From NCBI RefSeq assembly GCF_900182605.1, contig NZ_FXTB01000004.1:248001-312000 (forward strand): a DNA stretch of 64,000 bases, read 5' to 3'. A program made the position numbers and the translations under genes. The notes under the pieces were generated by a model. The model did no database searches, was not told the origin of the DNA, and saw nothing but the letters and a program-made list of their open reading frames with translations. Every line of letters starts with the position of its first letter. The stretch's first letter is position 1. The DNA comes from Saccharicrinis carchari (lineage in GTDB: Bacteria; Bacteroidota; Bacteroidia; Bacteroidales; Marinilabiliaceae). This document shows, in pieces, positions 13,509 to 22,347 of this stretch.

Positions 13509-14543
13509 TTATTCATTCACCACAACCCATTTATCGCTCTGCTCTTTGAGCTCGCCAAAGGATTTAACCGGTATATTATTTTCTTTAAACAAACTTTCCA
13601 CCTGCGCTGCATGGGATGGTTCTACCGCCACTAAAAGTCCACCACTGGTTTGCGGATCGCACAGCAACTTAATAAAGTCCGGGTTATGCATCTGAATTTT
13701 ATCGCCAAAGCTGTCCCAGTTTCTATGCGTCCCACCCGGCACACAATTTTGAGTAAGGTACTCATCCAACATATCAAAACGTGGTACTTCGTTATAATTG
13801 ATGTGGGCGGTTAGCTTGCTCCCCTCGCACATTTCGCGCAGGTGTCCCAGTAATCCAAAGCCCGTTACGTCTGTCATAGCTTTTACACCGCCAACATTTG
13901 CCAGATGCCAACCAATGTTGTTGAGTTGACTCATTGCATCGGGAGCCACATTTTTATGCGCTTTCTTTAAAAGTCCTTTTTTTTGTGCGGTAGTCAGTAT
14001 GCCTACACCCAATGGTTTGGTCAAATAGAGTTTGCATCCTTGCGTTGCCGTATTGTTTTGCTTTAACTTATTCAATTGCACCTTGCCTGTTACGGCCAAT
14101 CCGAATATTGGTTCGGGGCTATCGATACTATGACCTCCAGCTAGCAATATACCGGCATCCTGGCATGCGGCTCTACCCCCATCCAGCACCTGCTGTGCTA
14201 TTTCGGTGGGTATTTTATTCACCGGCCAGCCCAATATAGCGATGGCCATTAAGGGTTTACCCCCCATGGCATATATATCACTAATGGCATTAGCTGCAGC
14301 AATCTTACCAAAAGTAAAAGGATCATCTACAATGGGCATAAAAAAATCGGTAGTACTAATAATACCTGTACCATCACCCATATTGTAAACAGCTGCATCG
14401 TCCCTACTATCATTACCTACCAATAAATTATTATCTGTAATAGGCTTAATGTGGCTCACCAACATGGCATCCAGCACTTTGGACGATATTTTACAACCAC
14501 AGCCGGCTCCGTGGCTATACTGGGTTAATTTTATGTTATTCAT
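13509..14543 (-). CDS. selD: Selenide, water dikinase (selenophosphate synthetase)
   Basis: Makes selenophosphate from selenide and ATP, the selenium donor for selenouridine in tRNA and for selenocysteine. The 344-residue protein aligns along its length with E. coli SelD: the N-terminal [13 protein letters not shown] motif carries the catalytic pair Cys15/Cys17, followed by [20 protein letters not shown] and the C-terminal [11 protein letters not shown]. The catalytic position is cysteine rather than selenocysteine. It lies 213 bp downstream of mnmH on the same strand, so in this genome the selenophosphate is at least used for tRNA modification. No selA, selB or selC is seen in this window, which says nothing about the rest of the genome. 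Confidence 0.98.
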
Positions 14544-14756
14544 TTTTTTTATACTATAAGTCTAAACTATATATAAATTGCTAAAACACAAATAAAGTGT
14601 AGTTTAGCCCACACATAGCTGAAGTTAAATTTTTTAATAATGCTTTTATCCAACTGAAAACCCACAGCCTGCCGGTTGATTTAACTTCCGGATGCTCAAC
14701 TTAGTTACTGTAGGAGATATAAATAATTCATTGATTATTTAATACAAAAAACAATT

Positions 14757-15791
14757 TCAATAGCTTACCGTGCTTTCAATCTCGTTTTTAATAAACAAGG
14801 CATTATTGCGCCAGTCTGTATCATGCAATTCTATATAAATTATCTTATCGCTCTGGCGGTTCGATACACCACGCATATAGGCCTTGTCGTAGTAATTAAG
14901 GGCAAGCATGGCTACTTTATAATAATCCTTGCTATTGAGTGCCTCTATGGCTTCGTTGGTAGTAACACCCCCCAAACGTTTGGTAATTTTGCGGATACCT
15001 GTCTTTAACTGTTCGTCATCAATAGCAGCATAATCCTTTACCAGTGCATGCGCCCTTATTTGTTTAGGAACATCTAAAAAATAAACCATTGATGTTCTGA
15101 TTGTATTATACAAGCTTATAGGTACTTTCACCGCACCGATACTATGGCTCTCATCCTCGATATATACCGGCTTGGTAAAATCGAATTTCCGCCATTGGTC
15201 GAACAGGTTATTCTCAAATTGTTCAACGGTAGGCTGTAGCTTTTCACCAATTGATCCAAAGGCCGAGCCTTTATGACAAGCCAGGCATTCCAGATCGATG
15301 ATTTGACAACCCAATTCTTTTAAGTTATGCAGAATATGTGTTTTACCACTACCGGTATAACCCCCTATCACTTTTAAATCCACCTTCCACGTAAAGGCAG
15401 CCAGTACAAAATTCCGGTACGCTTTATAGCCTTTATGGATTACTTTAACATCGATAAAACCATTATTTTCCAAATGTTCCGCAAAGGCGTGGCTCCTCAT
15501 ACCGCCGCGCCAACAGTATACTACAACTTTTTTTGATGGTGCATATCTCAACGATTTATCCAGAAACCATTGTAATTTGGGTTTTACATAGGTGTAGCCC
15601 AGTTCAATGGCTTTTTCCTGTCCCTTTTGTTTGTACACTGTTCCCACATCTGCCCGCTCCTCATTACTAAAAAGAGGAATATTCACGGCTCCCGGGATAT
15701 GTCCTTTGTTATATTCTCCGGGCGACCTTACATCTATTATAGGTACACCACTATGCTTGTTATAATACGTTTCAATTGACAAATCCATCAT
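14757..15791 (-). CDS. mnmH: tRNA 2-selenouridine synthase
   Basis: Replaces sulfur with selenium at the wobble 2-thiouridine of tRNAs for Lys, Glu and Gln, using selenophosphate from SelD. The 344-residue protein (also called SelU/YbbB) has an N-terminal rhodanese domain with the active-site loop CWRGGMRS, Cys93, and a C-terminal P-loop domain with GGYTGSGKT at residues 143-151. Two consecutive ATG codons (15791 and 15788) are possible starts; a TATTTTTG promoter box at 15796-15803 lies only 4 bp upstream, so either the mRNA is nearly leaderless or a second box 20 bp further up is used. It precedes selD. Confidence 0.97.
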   Translation of the reverse strand: MMDLSIETYYNKHSGVPIIDVRSPGEYNKGHIPGAVNIPLFSNEERADVGTVYKQKGQEKAIELGYTYVKPKLQWFLDKSLRYAPSKKVVVYCWRGGMRSHAFAEHLENNGFIDVKVIHKGYKAYRNFVLAAFTWKVDLKVIGGYTGSGKTHILHNLKELGCQIIDLECLACHKGSAFGSIGEKLQPTVEQFENNLFDQWRKFDFTKPVYIEDESHSIGAVKVPISLYNTIRTSMVYFLDVPKQIRAHALVKDYAAIDDEQLKTGIRKITKRLGGVTTNEAIEALNSKDYYKVAMLALNYYDKAYMRGVSNRQSDKIIYIELHDTDWRNNALFIKNEIESTVSY

Positions 15792-16735: not shown

Positions 16736-16786
16736 CCCACCCCTCCTTTATTTACTATAATAAAAGAGGGGTGTTTTATTTTTAAA
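16736..16786 (+). terminator. Rho-independent terminator after the SPFH gene
   Basis: An imperfect hairpin with arms around CACCCTCCTTTATT (from about 16738) and AATAAAAGAGGGGTG (ending at 16773), followed by TTTTATTTTT. It separates the SPFH gene from the downstream ACP-led cluster and supports that cluster being its own operon. Confidence 0.75.
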
Positions 16787-16943: not shown

Positions 16944-17180
16944 ATGCGAGAAGAAATAAGGAAATTTATAGCCGAAACAACCTTTAGCGACCCATCCATT
17001 ATCAAAGATGAAACATTGATTTTTGATGAGGGAATTTTTGACTCTATGGGATTGTTGGGATTAATCAGTTTTTTGGAGAGCGAATTCAATGTAGAAACAC
17101 AAGATACCGATCTACAGGAAGAAAATTTTGGAAGCGTAGAACGAATTGTCGCGTTTATTGAAAAAAAAAAAGTTGCCTAG
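16944..17180 (+). CDS. Acyl carrier protein (secondary, cluster-specific)
   Basis: A 78-residue acidic helical protein of the phosphopantetheine-binding family. The modification site is Ser34 in FDSMGLLG, a variant of the usual DSL motif with methionine after serine, as in many specialised carrier proteins of the D-alanyl or nonribosomal kind. It is too divergent from primary fatty-acid AcpP to be that gene and is not next to fabF. It begins a set of four same-strand genes: amidotransferase, NAD-synthetase-like and AMP-forming ligase. It probably carries the acyl or aminoacyl group that the ligase activates. The cargo is unknown. Confidence 0.9.
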   Translation: MREEIRKFIAETTFSDPSIIKDETLIFDEGIFDSMGLLGLISFLESEFNVETQDTDLQEENFGSVERIVAFIEKKKVA

Positions 17181-17265
17181 ATAAAACGCCCCCTACCCAA
17201 AGCAAGTCGGAATTGGCAATGCATAACAACTGATAGTAAGGTACTATTGGCCAACACTTTACAAT

Positions 17266-19236
17266 ATGTGTGGGATAGCAGGATTTATAAATACACAAAA
17301 AGTTGACTCCCGAAAGTATGTTTTAAATGCTATGCTTGCTCGTATTGGTCACCGTGGACCGGATGAGTGTGGATTGTACGTGTCAGAAAATGCATGCCTG
17401 GGTAGTGTCCGACTTAGCATTGTGGATCTTATGAGCGGACAACAGCCCATGGCTACACCCGATGGAAGGTACTGGATAAGCTATAACGGCGAAGTATACA
17501 ACCATCCCGAATTAAGGAAGATGCTTTGCCAAAAAGGGCATCGCTTTACAAGCCATTGCGACACGGAAGTGGTACTACACATGTACCAGGAGTTTGGTGC
17601 AGATTGTTTGAGCCGGATGAACGGCCAGTTTGCCATTGCCATATGGGACACCCATAAACAAGAACTCTTTTTGGCTCGCGACCGTGTTGGTATTCGTCCT
17701 TTGTTTTTCACTAATACAACATCGGGCTTTGTTTTTGCTTCCGAAATAAAAGCCCTGTTCGAATACCCCGATACCTCGCGGAGTATAAACGCCACCGGAT
17801 TATCTCAAGTGTTCACCTTCTGGACAACATTATCTCCTTATACGGCCTTTGAAAAAATTTATGAAGTGCCACCGGGTTGCTACGCACTGCTTACAAACGA
17901 TAAACTTAAAGTTACACCCTATTGGGCAATGACTTTTAATAAAAACACCGAAAAAATATCACTGGGCGATGCCAAAGATAAATTTAATGCCTTGTTCCGC
18001 GACGCCATTGCTTTGCGGATGAGGGCAGATGTGCCCGTGGCTGCTTATCTGAGCGGGGGATTGGATAGCACCAGTACTACTGCTTTTATTAAGCAAATGT
18101 TTCCGGATAAATTAAATACCTTTTCCATTGGTTTCGAACAAAAAGACTTTGATGAGTCTGATTTTCAGACAGAGGTAGCCCATTTTTTCAATACACAGCA
18201 TCATTCCATATCGTTTAAAAATAGCGATGTGGCATCGCTATTTGAAAAGGTGATATGGCATACCGAGATACCGGTGCTCAGGACGGCACCTTTCCCCATG
18301 TTTAAGCTATCGGAATTGGTAAGGCGCCATGGCATAAAAGTGGTGATAACCGGCGAGGGAGCAGATGAAATGCTGGGTGGCTATAATATTTTTAAAGAGG
18401 CCATCATCCGCCATTTTTGGGCCAAATACCCGGAGTCGAAGTTACGTCCACTTTTACTTAAAAAACTCTACCCTTACCTCCCCCAGATAAAAAATGGTAG
18501 CATTGGTATGCTAAAACTTTTTTTTGCGTACAAACTGTCCGAAACCAACTCGCCGGTGTATTCGCACCTGCTGCGATGGAACAATACAGGCAGGATAGGA
18601 AAACTCCTATCGCATCAATTTAAAGAACAAGCCGGAAACAATGACCTAATTGGCGGGTATGCAAACAGCATTGCGTCTACATTGGCTCAATATAGCCCCT
18701 TGGCAAAGGCACAGTTCATCGAGTCCAATATATTTATGTCGGGGTATTTACTGTCGTCGCAAGGCGACCGGGTGGCTATGGCAAACTCTGTGGAAGGGAG
18801 GTACCCTTTCCTTGATCACCGCCTCGTTGAGTTTTGCTCTACCCTGCCCGACGAGCTGAAAATATCAGGTCTCGACGAAAAATATTTACTTAAACAGGTA
18901 GTTAAAGATATCATTCCCTCCTCGGTACTTAAAAGACCCAAGCAAGCCTACCGAGCCCCTGTTGCACAGGCCTTACTAAGCGATAAATCCGGATTTGTCG
19001 ATAACTATCTGTCGGCCCATAATTTAAACGAAAGCGGTGTTTTCGACTCTACAGCTGTAGAAAAGTTGATGCATAAGTTAAAAAATGGACAGGGCAACAA
19101 CGAAGTTGACAATATGGCACTGATGGCTATCTTATCCACCCAGGTGCTACATCAATTATATATTAAAAACCATACTGGCATAGCCTTAAATGAAATAAGC
19201 CAGGGTAGGGTGATGAACGAAACCTGTAACAAATAA
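17266..19236 (+). CDS. Asparagine synthetase-like glutamine amidotransferase (AsnB family)
   Basis: A 656-residue class II glutamine amidotransferase fused to an ATP-PPi synthetase domain. The N-terminal nucleophile is Cys2 (MCGIAGF), with the glutaminase motifs SYNGEVYNH and ARDRVGIRPLFF; the synthetase PP-loop is SGGLDS at residues 263-268, followed by TGEGADEMLGGY and SVEGRYPFLDH. Both active sites look intact. Primary asparagine synthetase is about 550-630 residues; the place in a cluster with a carrier protein, an AMP ligase and an NAD-synthetase-like gene suggests it amidates a specialised carboxylate rather than aspartate, as AsnB paralogues of surface-glycan and natural-product clusters do. 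A housekeeping AsnB role cannot be excluded. Gap to the ACP gene is 85 bp and to the next gene 10 bp. Confidence 0.9.
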   Translation: MCGIAGFINTQKVDSRKYVLNAMLARIGHRGPDECGLYVSENACLGSVRLSIVDLMSGQQPMATPDGRYWISYNGEVYNHPELRKMLCQKGHRFTSHCDTEVVLHMYQEFGADCLSRMNGQFAIAIWDTHKQELFLARDRVGIRPLFFTNTTSGFVFASEIKALFEYPDTSRSINATGLSQVFTFWTTLSPYTAFEKIYEVPPGCYALLTNDKLKVTPYWAMTFNKNTEKISLGDAKDKFNALFRDAIALRMRADVPVAAYLSGGLDSTSTTAFIKQMFPDKLNTFSIGFEQKDFDESDFQTEVAHFFNTQHHSISFKNSDVASLFEKVIWHTEIPVLRTAPFPMFKLSELVRRHGIKVVITGEGADEMLGGYNIFKEAIIRHFWAKYPESKLRPLLLKKLYPYLPQIKNGSIGMLKLFFAYKLSETNSPVYSHLLRWNNTGRIGKLLSHQFKEQAGNNDLIGGYANSIASTLAQYSPLAKAQFIESNIFMSGYLLSSQGDRVAMANSVEGRYPFLDHRLVEFCSTLPDELKISGLDEKYLLKQVVKDIIPSSVLKRPKQAYRAPVAQALLSDKSGFVDNYLSAHNLNESGVFDSTAVEKLMHKLKNGQGNNEVDNMALMAILSTQVLHQLYIKNHTGIALNEISQGRVMNETCNK

Positions 19237-19246
19237 TTTTATTATA

Positions 19247-20248
19247 ATGACAACATATCGCAAACCTTTCTCAAAAAATATCCTTCATATCGAGAAGCTG
19301 GATGAAGTAATAGAAAATATATGCATCCAGTTGCAAAAAGATGTATATAAACGATTTCGCCGCTATGGCGGAGTAATCGGAATTAGCGGTGGTATTGACT
19401 CATCGGTAACCCTGGCCATTGCAGTGCGGGCATTTGGTGCGGATAAACTATTGGGCATCATGCTGCCCGAAACAGATTCGAGTCCTGAAAGCGAGGAGCT
19501 TGCCCGGGAGCTGGCAAATAAGTTTGGTGTTAAGAGTATTGTGGAAAACATCAGCGGAGCGCTGGATGGTTTTGGCTGTTATCGCCGGCGCGACGAAGCC
19601 GTTAAAAAAGTAGTGCCCGAATACAATCCGGCTGAAGATAAAATGAAAGTAATCATCCCAAAAGATTTTGTCAACAAAAATATGCCTCCGGTACATTTTG
19701 TTTCGGTAACTTTTAAAGATGGTACCGAAAAGCAGGTGCGCTTGCCATTGCAAGAATATCTGCAAATTGTGGCTGCCTCTAATTTTAAGCAACGCTGCCG
19801 TGCCAATATGCTGTACTATCATGCCGAAACGTTAAATTATGCTGTATTGGGCACACCAAACAAACACGAGGTGCAACAGGGCTTTTTTGTTAAGTATGGC
19901 GATGGTGCCGCCGACGTGATGCCGATTGGTAATTTATATAAAACACAGGTATATCAAATTGCCAGACACCTTGGGGTGCCAAATAGCATCATACAACGTA
20001 CCCCCACAACAGATACTTATTCGGCTGAACAAACACAAGAGGAGTTCTTTTATCAAATGCCCTTCGAAAAAATGGACTTGCTCTGGTATGCCTGGGAAAA
20101 TGAGTATTTACCTGTGGAAGTAGCTCCTGTAATGGAAATGACAACGGAGGAGGTAAATAATATTTTTAATAATTTTGCACGCAAGCAAAAAACAACAGCG
20201 TATTTGAGAACTGCCCCCCTGCATCATTATATCATCAATAATAAATAA
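19247..20248 (+). CDS. NAD synthetase-like ATP pyrophosphatase with an insertion
   Basis: A 333-residue protein of the NadE family of N-type ATP pyrophosphatases. The PP-loop is SGGIDSS at residues 47-53, and the later signature segments are present in altered form: NYAVLGTPNKHE where NadE has VGTSNKSE, then KYGDGAADVMPIGNLYKTQVYQIARHLGVP. Compared with a typical ammonia-dependent NadE of about 270 residues it has roughly 60 extra residues in the middle (about 100-165) including PEYNPAEDKMKVIIPK. No glutaminase domain is attached. Starting 10 bp after the amidotransferase, it may use ammonia to amidate another adenylated acid. Genuine NAD synthesis is possible but the insertion and the context argue for a specialised role. 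Confidence 0.82.
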   Translation: MTTYRKPFSKNILHIEKLDEVIENICIQLQKDVYKRFRRYGGVIGISGGIDSSVTLAIAVRAFGADKLLGIMLPETDSSPESEELARELANKFGVKSIVENISGALDGFGCYRRRDEAVKKVVPEYNPAEDKMKVIIPKDFVNKNMPPVHFVSVTFKDGTEKQVRLPLQEYLQIVAASNFKQRCRANMLYYHAETLNYAVLGTPNKHEVQQGFFVKYGDGAADVMPIGNLYKTQVYQIARHLGVPNSIIQRTPTTDTYSAEQTQEEFFYQMPFEKMDLLWYAWENEYLPVEVAPVMEMTTEEVNNIFNNFARKQKTTAYLRTAPLHHYIINNK

Positions 20249-20280
20249 GTGTTTTTTAAATCCAAATAACCCCAGCCGGT

Positions 20281-21750
20281 ATGAACTGTGTTAATTATTT
20301 ACTACCGAAAGATATTGATACAGAGGAACTATTTGTATTGGGCCAAAAGGAAACCCTGTCGTTTTACGATTTAAAACAACAGGTGTTCATGTTGGCCGGT
20401 GCTTTGAGGAAAAAATATGGCTGTGGCAATAAGATTATACTGCTATCGCCAAACAATAATTTCTGCATTGTCAGTTATCTCGCTATCATGAAATCCGGTA
20501 ATGTTGTTGTCCCCTTAAACCCATCTACCGAGAAACAACAGCTCCAATTTGTTAAAGCACAAACCGGTTGCGAAGTCATGTTTGTTCCCGAAGTGTTGAA
20601 ACGAAGAATCGAAGTACCCTTTAAAGATGTATGGTGCGAAGCTGATATACAAAGCATATGCAAAGATGGCAGCACTTTTGATTCTATTGAGGCAGATGAG
20701 TTGGATCCGGATACCCTTGCGCAAATAATTTACACTTCGGGTTCAACCGCAATGCCTAAGGGGGTTATGATATCGCATAGAAATATTATCGCAAACACCT
20801 CGTCTATAGTCGATTACCTTAATCTTACTTCAGCGGATATTATGGAGGTAGTACTTCCATTTTTTTACTGTTATGGCTTATCCTTGTTGCATACGCATCT
20901 TAGAGTTAAAGGTAAGATTGTACTCAATAACAACTTTATTTTCCTAGGCTCGGTTTATAAAGATTTTGAAAAGTACAAATGCACAGGCTTTGCAGGTGTT
21001 CCTAGTCATTTCCAAATACTTATGCGCAAGTCAGATACCTTTGTTAAAACCCAATTTCCACACTTGCGTTATGTAACCCAAGCCGGAGGTAAATTGCACA
21101 GCGTATTTATCGAGGAATTCAGAAAGGCAAAACCCGACATTCAGTTTATAGTGATGTACGGACAAACGGAAGCCACGGCCAGGCTTTCCTATCTTCCGGC
21201 GGAACGACTTGACGATAAGTTGGGATCATTAGGAAAAGGCATCCCTGGAGTACAGTTAAAAGTAGTAGATGACCTGGGGCATGCTATCAAACCCGGCCAG
21301 ATAGGTGAAATAATTGCCAAGGGGGATAATGTGATGCTGGGGTATTATAAAGATGAGAAGGCAACGGCACAGGCTTTAAGGAATGGCTGGCTCTACACCG
21401 GCGACCTGGCTACTTTAGATGAGGAAGGTTTTATATACCATGCAGCACGCAAAAAAGAAATCATAAAAGTTGGCGGACGAAGAGTTAGCCCCAAAGAAAT
21501 TGAAGAGGTAATCGTTTCTATCCCCGGCGTTGTGGATTGTACCATAAAATCGATTCACGACGAGGTGTTGGGCGAGGCCATTAAAGCCGTAGTGGTAAAA
21601 AACGATGCCAACGCAGAACTGGATGAAAACAGTGTGAAGGAATTTTGCAGCACCAGGCTGGCCGCCTATAAAATTCCACATATTATAACCTTCACCTCAA
21701 AAATGGATGTTAACGCAGCCGGTAAAAAGGTAAAAAAACAGGAAGGCTGA
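20281..21750 (+). CDS. AMP-forming acyl-CoA/acyl-ACP synthetase (ANL family)
   Basis: A 489-residue adenylate-forming enzyme that should activate a carboxylic or amino acid with ATP and load it on CoA or a carrier protein. Family motifs are in order: YTSGSTAMPKG (A3, from residue 151), MYGQTEATAR (A5), YTGDLA (A7), a hinge region around GGRRVSPKEIEE (A8) and the C-terminal lysine motif NAAGKK (A10, about residues 480-485). All catalytic elements are kept. It ends the four-gene cluster begun by the carrier protein at 16944, 32 bp after the NadE-like gene, making the carrier protein its likely acceptor. The substrate cannot be told from sequence alone. Confidence 0.92.
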   Translation: MNCVNYLLPKDIDTEELFVLGQKETLSFYDLKQQVFMLAGALRKKYGCGNKIILLSPNNNFCIVSYLAIMKSGNVVVPLNPSTEKQQLQFVKAQTGCEVMFVPEVLKRRIEVPFKDVWCEADIQSICKDGSTFDSIEADELDPDTLAQIIYTSGSTAMPKGVMISHRNIIANTSSIVDYLNLTSADIMEVVLPFFYCYGLSLLHTHLRVKGKIVLNNNFIFLGSVYKDFEKYKCTGFAGVPSHFQILMRKSDTFVKTQFPHLRYVTQAGGKLHSVFIEEFRKAKPDIQFIVMYGQTEATARLSYLPAERLDDKLGSLGKGIPGVQLKVVDDLGHAIKPGQIGEIIAKGDNVMLGYYKDEKATAQALRNGWLYTGDLATLDEEGFIYHAARKKEIIKVGGRRVSPKEIEEVIVSIPGVVDCTIKSIHDEVLGEAIKAVVVKNDANAELDENSVKEFCSTRLAAYKIPHIITFTSKMDVNAAGKKVKKQEG

Positions 21751-21831: not shown

Positions 21832-22347
21832 CTACCAGCCGTTAAAGCTTAGCATATCATCGATACTCTTGCGTTTTTTTTCTGGTGCGTTGTTGTTTGT
21901 GGGATAACCTATAGTTAGTATGGCAATGGGTTCCCAGCCATCATCGCAAGGAAGGGCCTCCTTCACTAATTCCGGGTCAAAGTTACAAACCCAGCAGGTG
22001 CCCAGTCCTAAATCGGTAGCCATTAAGGTCATGTGATCCGTTGCAATGGCTGCATCAATGTCGCAATGGTACTTATTGTCGAACGAACGTTTCCAGGAAG
22101 CCTCCTGGTGGCCATAGATAATAATCAGGCTTGGTGCTTTTGCAAACCAATCCCGGGGATAGGCCGGGTGTAATTTCTTTAGTATTATATCCTTGTCAAC
22201 GGCAATAAATTTTAAAGGCTGCCTGTTGGCAGCAGATGGCGCCACCAATCCTGCCTTAGCCACCTGCTTAATCAGGGTGTGATCTACTTTGTTTTCGTGG
22301 TAATTACGTACCGAATATCTCGCCTTCATCAATTCTTTAAAATGCAT
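21832..22347 (-). CDS. Nitroreductase-family FMN oxidoreductase
   Basis: A 171-residue protein of the nitroreductase superfamily, homodimeric flavin enzymes that reduce nitro compounds, quinones or other substrates with NAD(P)H. The N-terminal signature RYSVRNYHENKV (about residues 10-21) and the APSAANRQP segment contribute to FMN binding; DLGLGTCWVCNFD and AILTIGYP are the usual later motifs. It is on the short side (many members are 180-220 residues) but complete. It converges on the AMP-ligase gene with an 81 bp gap and no operon partner. Substrate unknown. Confidence 0.92.
   Translation of the reverse strand: MHFKELMKARYSVRNYHENKVDHTLIKQVAKAGLVAPSAANRQPLKFIAVDKDIILKKLHPAYPRDWFAKAPSLIIIYGHQEASWKRSFDNKYHCDIDAAIATDHMTLMATDLGLGTCWVCNFDPELVKEALPCDDGWEPIAILTIGYPTNNNAPEKKRKSIDDMLSFNGW

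Follow-up and report, generated by a model that had tools for sequence, protein, structure and literature searches.

Four adjacent genes in a 64,000-nt stretch of Saccharicrinis carchari DNA (the window) probably constitute a single conserved module, dependent on a carrier protein, that supplies a cell-surface polysaccharide with an acyl group bearing an amide. We put the probability of this reading at roughly 60%. The genes encode an acyl carrier protein (ACP)-like protein, an AsnB-type glutamine amidotransferase, a NadE-like amide synthetase and an AMP-forming ligase (Table 1); they are real and intact. All four lie on the same strand, with intergenic gaps of 85, 10 and 32 bp. A terminator separates them from an upstream prohibitin-like gene, and a nitroreductase gene converges on them from the other side. 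This layout, confirmed by the ORF coordinates, the folded hairpin and the orientation of the nitroreductase gene, is the one described in the initial annotation. The terminator hairpin was missed by a simple consensus scan and was found by RNA folding. Scanning with the sigma-70 promoter consensus yielded sites no commoner than in shuffled sequence.

Table 1. Positions of the four genes and of the elements flanking them in the window.
Feature	Position	Strand	Length	Profile score or folding data
Intrinsic terminator of upstream prohibitin-like gene	16738..16773	+		hairpin -19.1 kcal/mol, z = -4.7, U-rich tail
ACP-like carrier protein	16944..17180	+	78 aa	PF00550, 26 bits (above cut-off)
AsnB-type glutamine amidotransferase	17266..19236	+	656 aa	TIGR01536, 521 bits
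NadE-like PP-loop amide synthetase, NF002048/PRK00876 subfamily	19247..20248	+	333 aa	NF002048, 428 bits (cut-off 313)
AMP-forming acyl ligase, subtype A	20281..21750	+	489 aa	PF00501, 232 bits; PF13193
Nitroreductase, convergent downstream neighbour	21832-22347	-		

The catalytic motifs, also reported intact at the outset, are all there, with conservation of at least 98%. These are the D33-S34 pair of the carrier protein, which includes the phosphopantetheine Ser34 (61 homologues), and, each in 61 to 68 homologues, C2 and the SGG-D-S residues at 263-268 of the AsnB-type enzyme, the PP-loop SGG-DS at 47-52 of the NadE-like protein, and TSG-T (152-156) and K482 of the ligase. The AsnB-type protein combines the glutaminase Cys2 with the synthetase PP-loop (SGGLDS), as an asparagine synthetase AsnB does, and carries GEGADE at 363-368 and K559. 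Its nearest special family is the XrtA amidotransferase TIGR03108, where it scores 430.5 bits, under the curated cut-off of 816.9. Membership in the N-acetylglutaminylglutamine amide (NAGGN) trio was rejected on its TIGR03104 score (357 bits, cut-off 570).

The grouping of these genes is not accidental. Among 99 genomes of the order, sampled at one per genus, the six with the NadE-like gene are also the six with the ligase, and five of them have the AsnB-type gene as well. The chance of such an overlap is 9e-10 if genomes are taken as independent, and p-values of this kind are too small because the loci are not phylogenetically independent. Related loci are spread over Bacteroidota, Ignavibacteria/Calditrichaeota, Chloroflexota and Alphaproteobacteria; all four genes lie within 7 kb in 58 of the 68, and the window's gene order is found in 40. 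Pairwise distances among the genes of the set correlate across loci (0.71-0.88). In one genome (G067) the set is divided into two pairs, ACP-AsnB and NadE-ligase, lying on two contigs, and both pairs are retained. Because of this strict co-occurrence, conserved order and co-divergence, we conclude that the genes act as one set. The initial annotation would have regarded the grouping as a coincidence had each gene been the sole asnB, nadE or ACP of the genome, in an order not conserved elsewhere; in fact the order is kept across phyla and paralogues are present. The same genome has a separate 563-aa NadE (C5:8196), other ACP genes, and three further AsnB-type genes, two of which adjoin glycosyltransferase-type genes; the AsnB-type gene at C6 looks like a plain AsnB. 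With housekeeping NadE and AsnB copies elsewhere, NAD or asparagine metabolism alone does not account for the set. Phage records contained no match to it, and a phage origin was dismissed. A literature search, from which most subscription journals fell outside coverage, returned no account of the four-gene set.

What the set might serve is suggested by its surroundings in other genomes. In relatives it adjoins or sits inside exopolysaccharide (EPS) loci, and the gene that most often follows it immediately encodes a PglC-like initiating sugar transferase; a Bac_transf/PglC-like transferase occurs in the flanks of 25 of 49 subtype-A loci, usually as the next gene. The set is embedded in EPS or O-antigen loci in L058, L077-L080, L092 and L093. 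Polysacc_synt_2, Wzz, SLBB, Poly_export, GT1 and Hexapep were each found near the set in 3 to 6 of 113 cases, as against at most 1 each in 120 random regions taken mostly from the same genomes. Some loci adjoin unrelated genes, and no polysaccharide gene adjoins the set in the window. The window's genome has an orthologue of the sugar transferase that follows the set in relatives (C4:131187) and an EPS locus on contig C2, so that the link between set and glycan within this genome is indirect. The window's lineage has lost the transferase from beside the set and kept the gene elsewhere. Of the two functions first envisaged, decoration of a surface glycan is thus the one to which the neighbourhoods point, and the notion of four genes working as one set stands with it; a small signalling amide received no support. 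The argument that missing glycosyltransferases speak against a glycan locus fails, since roughly half the close relatives carry an initiating sugar transferase after the set, and its absence holds for the window's lineage only.

A peculiarity of the set is the NadE-like protein, whose gene is labelled everywhere as an NAD enzyme yet seems to have another role. It passes the general family TIGR00552 (160.7 bits, cut-off 63.65) as well as its own subfamily, and its predicted structure (pLDDT 86) finds its best PDB fold matches in the NH3-dependent NAD synthetases 2e18 and 1xng and the NMN synthetase 3fiu. The latter enzyme, from Francisella, illustrates that the NadE fold is able to switch acceptor. 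The protein shares with NadE the fold, the PP-loop and most ATP/Mg/deamido-NAD contact positions: residues R183, T203, E208, K216, D223, K232 and T254, conserved across the homologues, presumably correspond to these contacts in Bacillus subtilis NadE. Since the deamido-NAD contacts are kept, the substrate may be nucleotide-linked, and an NAD-like compound may fit. The protein has no glutaminase domain and differs from NadE by an extra segment of about 45 residues (at about 125-170), by PTTDT-QTQEEF in place of PSA-L / DE-ELG, and by the obligate genomic partnership of its gene with a ligase. The enzyme of the Azospirillum nadE2 paper is a glutamine-dependent NadE that falls outside the NF002048/PRK00876 subfamily.

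The window ligase belongs to subtype A, with the pocket motif PFFYCYGLSLLHTHL; it is at least 37% identical to the ligases of 48 other subtype-A loci and 29-33% identical to those of subtype B. Its segment PFFYCYGLS has no Asp at what we take to be the A4 position, where NRPS A domains hold the alpha-amino group, so that an alpha-amino acid is an unlikely substrate and NRPS-like loading of one was set aside. Against the XrtA acyl ligase family TIGR03098 it scores 297.7 bits; for subtype-B ligases this is the best family (454-458 bits), and both stay under the curated cut-off of 592.35. A PrmC-type methyltransferase, a paralogue of the housekeeping PrmC, lies beside the set in none of the 49 subtype-A loci as compared to 7 of 18 subtype-B loci; this paralogue and a GNAT-like protein accompany subtype B only, and the former connects the set with amide chemistry.

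We envisage that the ligase would activate a carboxylic acid, probably not an alpha-amino acid, and attach it to the carrier protein. With ammonia from glutamine, the AsnB-type enzyme would amidate a carboxylate, and the NadE-like enzyme would adenylate and amidate either a further carboxylate or that same one at a different step, its substrate being carrier-bound or nucleotide-linked. A transferase from the polysaccharide locus, of the GNAT-like or hexapeptide type found in relatives, could then transfer the group to a sugar, either ahead of polymerisation or while it proceeds; in subtype B, the PrmC-type enzyme might methylate the amide nitrogen. L016 and L022 come from two MAGs of Saccharicrinis and share their flanks; in L022 a single exchange replaced the C-terminal part of NadE and the ligase together. 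This exchange and the strictest pairing of any genes in the set suggest that the two proteins act on the same molecule. A bolder proposal, to which we give even odds, is that NF002048/PRK00876 proteins at large are not NAD synthases and instead serve carrier-protein pathways as amide synthetases for surface polysaccharide amides (N-methyl-amides in subtype B), the acid being changed by swapping the ligase along with the acceptor-binding C-terminal part of the NadE-like protein.

The same exchange and pairing argue against two parallel modifications, in which the AsnB-type and/or NadE-like enzyme would amidate a nucleotide-linked uronic acid and, independently of this, ligase and carrier would provide the acyl substituent of an amino sugar within the same repeat unit. 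We consider this arrangement unlikely, though worth keeping in mind. The conserved deamido-NAD contacts would, as we understand them, suit a substrate resembling a dinucleotide, for example an NDP-uronate, and L080 has a UDP-sugar-dehydrogenase-like gene; most loci, however, have no uronate genes beside them. The AsnB-type WbpS (PGN_1234), which makes a glycan uronamide in Porphyromonas and whose related proteins match TIGR03108 (PMC7468200), is a precedent for this arrangement and for the polysaccharide module alike.

Less probable still is a free or lipid-linked small amide (a signal, compatible solute, siderophore or lipid) unconnected with polysaccharide. The window and several other loci lack glycan genes beside the set, and the carrier protein weakly resembles the OlsHI and DltC carrier families; against this, its surroundings in Bacteroidota, Chloroflexota and Alphaproteobacteria indicate EPS and O-antigen loci, and the set is not accompanied by any conserved thioesterase, ketosynthase or exporter. 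A chance juxtaposition of surplus NAD synthase and AsnB genes with an ACP and a ligase unrelated to them is hardly credible in view of the co-occurrence, the clustering across phyla and the housekeeping copies elsewhere, even though all four families have housekeeping members and the NadE-like protein exceeds the TIGR00552 cut-off.

If these proposals are correct, a gene family widely annotated as NAD synthase, including the Sinorhizobium meliloti pSymB copy, needs re-annotation, and metabolic models that treat the gene as a backup nadE are wrong. The module would also define a general route by which bacterial surface glycans acquire amides, and would be a starting point for understanding the AsnB, ligase and carrier genes of XrtA-type EPS loci.

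These XrtA/PEP-CTERM loci likewise place an amidotransferase (TIGR03108), a ligase (TIGR03098, closest to subtype B) and a carrier beside EPS genes. The present set adds a NadE-fold amide synthetase and is not a standard member, as its scores fall under both family cut-offs; neither exosortase nor PEP-CTERM genes were seen in the flanks examined. WbpS, from the A-LPS of P. gingivalis, resembles the set by description, being an AsnB-type enzyme of a surface-glycan pathway in Bacteroidota. It belongs to the Wbp pathway with VimA/VimE, for which the accessible part of the source mentions neither a dedicated carrier protein nor an AMP ligase or NadE-like protein (PMC7468200). D-alanylation by DltA/DltC likewise pairs an AMP ligase with a dedicated small carrier for a cell-surface polymer. 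The set differs from it in having extra amidating enzymes and no DltD or MBOAT protein DltB alongside; a Dlt system was discounted, given that no MBOAT-like gene was noticed beside the set and that the carrier scores 35 and 28 bits in the DltC families (cut-offs 68 and 52). The same logic appears in a polysaccharide locus, L137, where an AsnB 39% identical to that of the window, an A domain, an ACP, a WbuX-type PP-loop enzyme and an NRPS lie beside glycosyltransferases. There the A domain is of the NRPS type, unlike the module's ligase, and the place of NadE is taken by the WbuX-type N-acetyl-sugar amidotransferase (145 bits, under the cut-off of 203).

A carrier-protein gene, followed by genes for an AsnB-type amidotransferase, a NadE-like protein and an AMP ligase, opens a set of four that is bounded by a strong terminator on the 5' side and a convergent nitroreductase gene on the 3' side. 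The window covers C4:248001-312000 in a 4.64-Mb Bacteroidota genome that has Marinilabiliaceae as close relatives. Catalytic motifs, read as intact in the initial annotation, are indeed complete in all four proteins and nearly invariant among homologues. The grouping, which that annotation would have called accidental had asnB, nadE and ACP been the sole copies and the order unconserved, is not accidental. Separate NadE, AsnB-type and ACP genes lie elsewhere in the genome, so the four are specialised copies, and their order recurs in other genomes.

Coordinates of the four-gene set and of related or neighbouring features
Feature	Location	Strand	Remark
Carrier protein, AsnB-type amidotransferase, NadE-like protein, AMP ligase	window 16944-21750	+	
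selD and tRNA 2-selenouridine synthase	window 13509-15791	-	adjacent; common selenium tRNA modification pair
Bac_transf orthologue (68%)	C4:131187		same genome as window
Initiating sugar transferase, Labilibacter	L018:12719-13855		N-terminal methyltransferase-like domain ~200 aa, C-terminal Bac_transf; unusual architecture
HHSTG lipoprotein-like family (examples)	L040:3838-4653; L017:1808-2677; L106:8969-9859		~280 aa
Related but distinct set	L137:3058-11597		G037:C20; beside glycosyltransferases

Order-wide, among 99 genomes (one per genus), the NadE-like gene and the ligase are present in the same six, five of which have AsnB. The sixth (G007) retains an apparent C-terminal AsnB remnant between ACP and NadE; AsnB was lost there by deletion. 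Another genome (G067) has both halves of the set, ACP-AsnB and NadE-ligase, divided over two contigs. All four genes fall inside 7 kb in 58 of the 68 loci with the NadE-like gene, some of the others being interrupted by contig ends, and 40 have the window's order; Alphaproteobacteria, Chloroflexota and distant Bacteroidota have different ones. Pairwise protein distances for all four genes correlate at 0.71-0.88. The NadE-like subfamily occurs in 12 of 297 sampled genomes of the phylum; the archaeon Methanosarcina acetivorans, a control in the genome search, likewise has an NF002048 member.

The NadE-like protein belongs to NF002048 and also passes the general NadE model; its structure model (pLDDT 86) matches NH3-dependent NAD synthetases and Francisella NMN synthetase. 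R183, T203, E208, K216, D223, K232 and T254 are conserved in the homologue alignment, positions that we take to be the ATP, Mg and deamido-NAD contacts of B. subtilis NadE (UniProt annotation). Since these contacts are conserved, a nucleotide-linked acid has to be taken seriously as a candidate substrate, and as far as the sequence goes the protein could be a real NAD synthetase. Unlike NadE, the protein has an insertion at ~125-170 and PTTDT...QTQEEF in place of the PSA-L...DE-ELG segment.

No polysaccharide gene adjoins the set within the window, so its glycan link rests on comparison with other genomes. The flanks of 25 of the 49 loci whose ligase is, like the window's, of subtype A encode a protein that ends in a Bac_transf domain, mostly as the next gene; its model matches WbaP and the phosphoglycosyl transferase PglC, and its N-terminal part resembles a methyltransferase. 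In Labilibacter this gene separates the ligase from the nitroreductase gene that, in the window, comes directly after the ligase; it was lost from the set's flank in the window's lineage, and an orthologue is retained elsewhere in the genome. The set lies within EPS/O-antigen clusters in four loci picked irrespective of flanks (L077-L080), and likewise in one locus each of Chloroflexota (L058), of Shinella (L092) and of Azospirillum (L093). Among 113 neighbouring proteins, a modest sample, a Pfam census counted Polysacc_synt_2 (6), Hexapep (5), Wzz (4), SLBB (4), Poly_export (3) and GT1 (3), each found fewer than twice among 120 control proteins taken from random regions, for the most part in the same genomes; this is consistent with a polysaccharide link. 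Polysaccharide loci beside the set also encode a lipoprotein-like family that has an HHSTG motif and matches no Pfam entry (16 of the 49 loci of subtype A).

Ligases of subtype A are 37-100% identical to the window's, and those of subtype B (18 loci) 29-33%; the exosortase-A (XrtA) ligase family TIGR03098 was the best match of both B ligases tested. Of the 18 B loci, 7 have a PrmC-type methyltransferase and 8 a GNAT-like protein, against 0 of 49 A loci in either case (p = 4e-5 and 7e-6, values that are optimistic because loci such as the two from S. meliloti and the two from M. ciceri are non-independent). All three genomes tested have a better-scoring PrmC elsewhere, which makes the PrmC-like gene a paralogue. 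Characterised PrmC proteins methylate the glutamine side-chain amide nitrogen, and its presence fits an amide product. The GNAT-like family (~370 aa, no NCBIfam match) accompanies the subtype-B set on rhizobial and other alphaproteobacterial plasmids (L059, L060, L090-L094); in S. meliloti its gene is located ~10 kb from the set, together with that of the PrmC paralogue and adjacent to a gene of lipopolysaccharide biosynthesis.

The locus and its flanks are common to two MAGs of Saccharicrinis (L016 and L022) at ~80-87% DNA identity, but at the position of L016's A ligase L022 carries a ligase of subtype B together with PrmC and a LamG-like gene. The breakpoint lies within the NadE-like gene: the two proteins are 86-89% identical in residues 1-195 and only 66% in residues 196-333, against 85-87% along the full length between L016 and the window. 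The ligase was thus exchanged together with the C-terminal part of the NadE-like protein, a hint but not proof that the two enzymes recognise the same substrate.

Taken jointly, we give a probability of about 0.6 to a module making an amide-bearing group for a surface polymer. The ligase would load an acid, probably not an alpha-amino acid, onto the carrier; one or two amides would come from the action of AsnB and the NadE-like enzyme; and a transferase encoded in the locus would move the group to a sugar of the polymer, the amide being N-methylated in subtype B. That an NDP-uronate is amidated instead, with acylation independent alongside, is the main rival and appears unlikely. Among experimental precedents, Porphyromonas WbpS comes closest, an AsnB-type enzyme of such a glycan pathway; the work on it also points out a connection to the XrtA amidotransferase (PMC7468200). 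The set would work like the XrtA AsnB/ligase/ACP trio, but by their cut-offs it falls outside the XrtA equivalog families. Our literature search found no description of the four-gene set. A related but distinct polysaccharide-locus set (L137) comprises an NRPS-type A domain, AsnB, ACP, a WbuX-type N-acetyl-sugar amidotransferase and a 1072-aa NRPS-like protein, and like the window's set has a PP-loop enzyme alongside AsnB and ACP.
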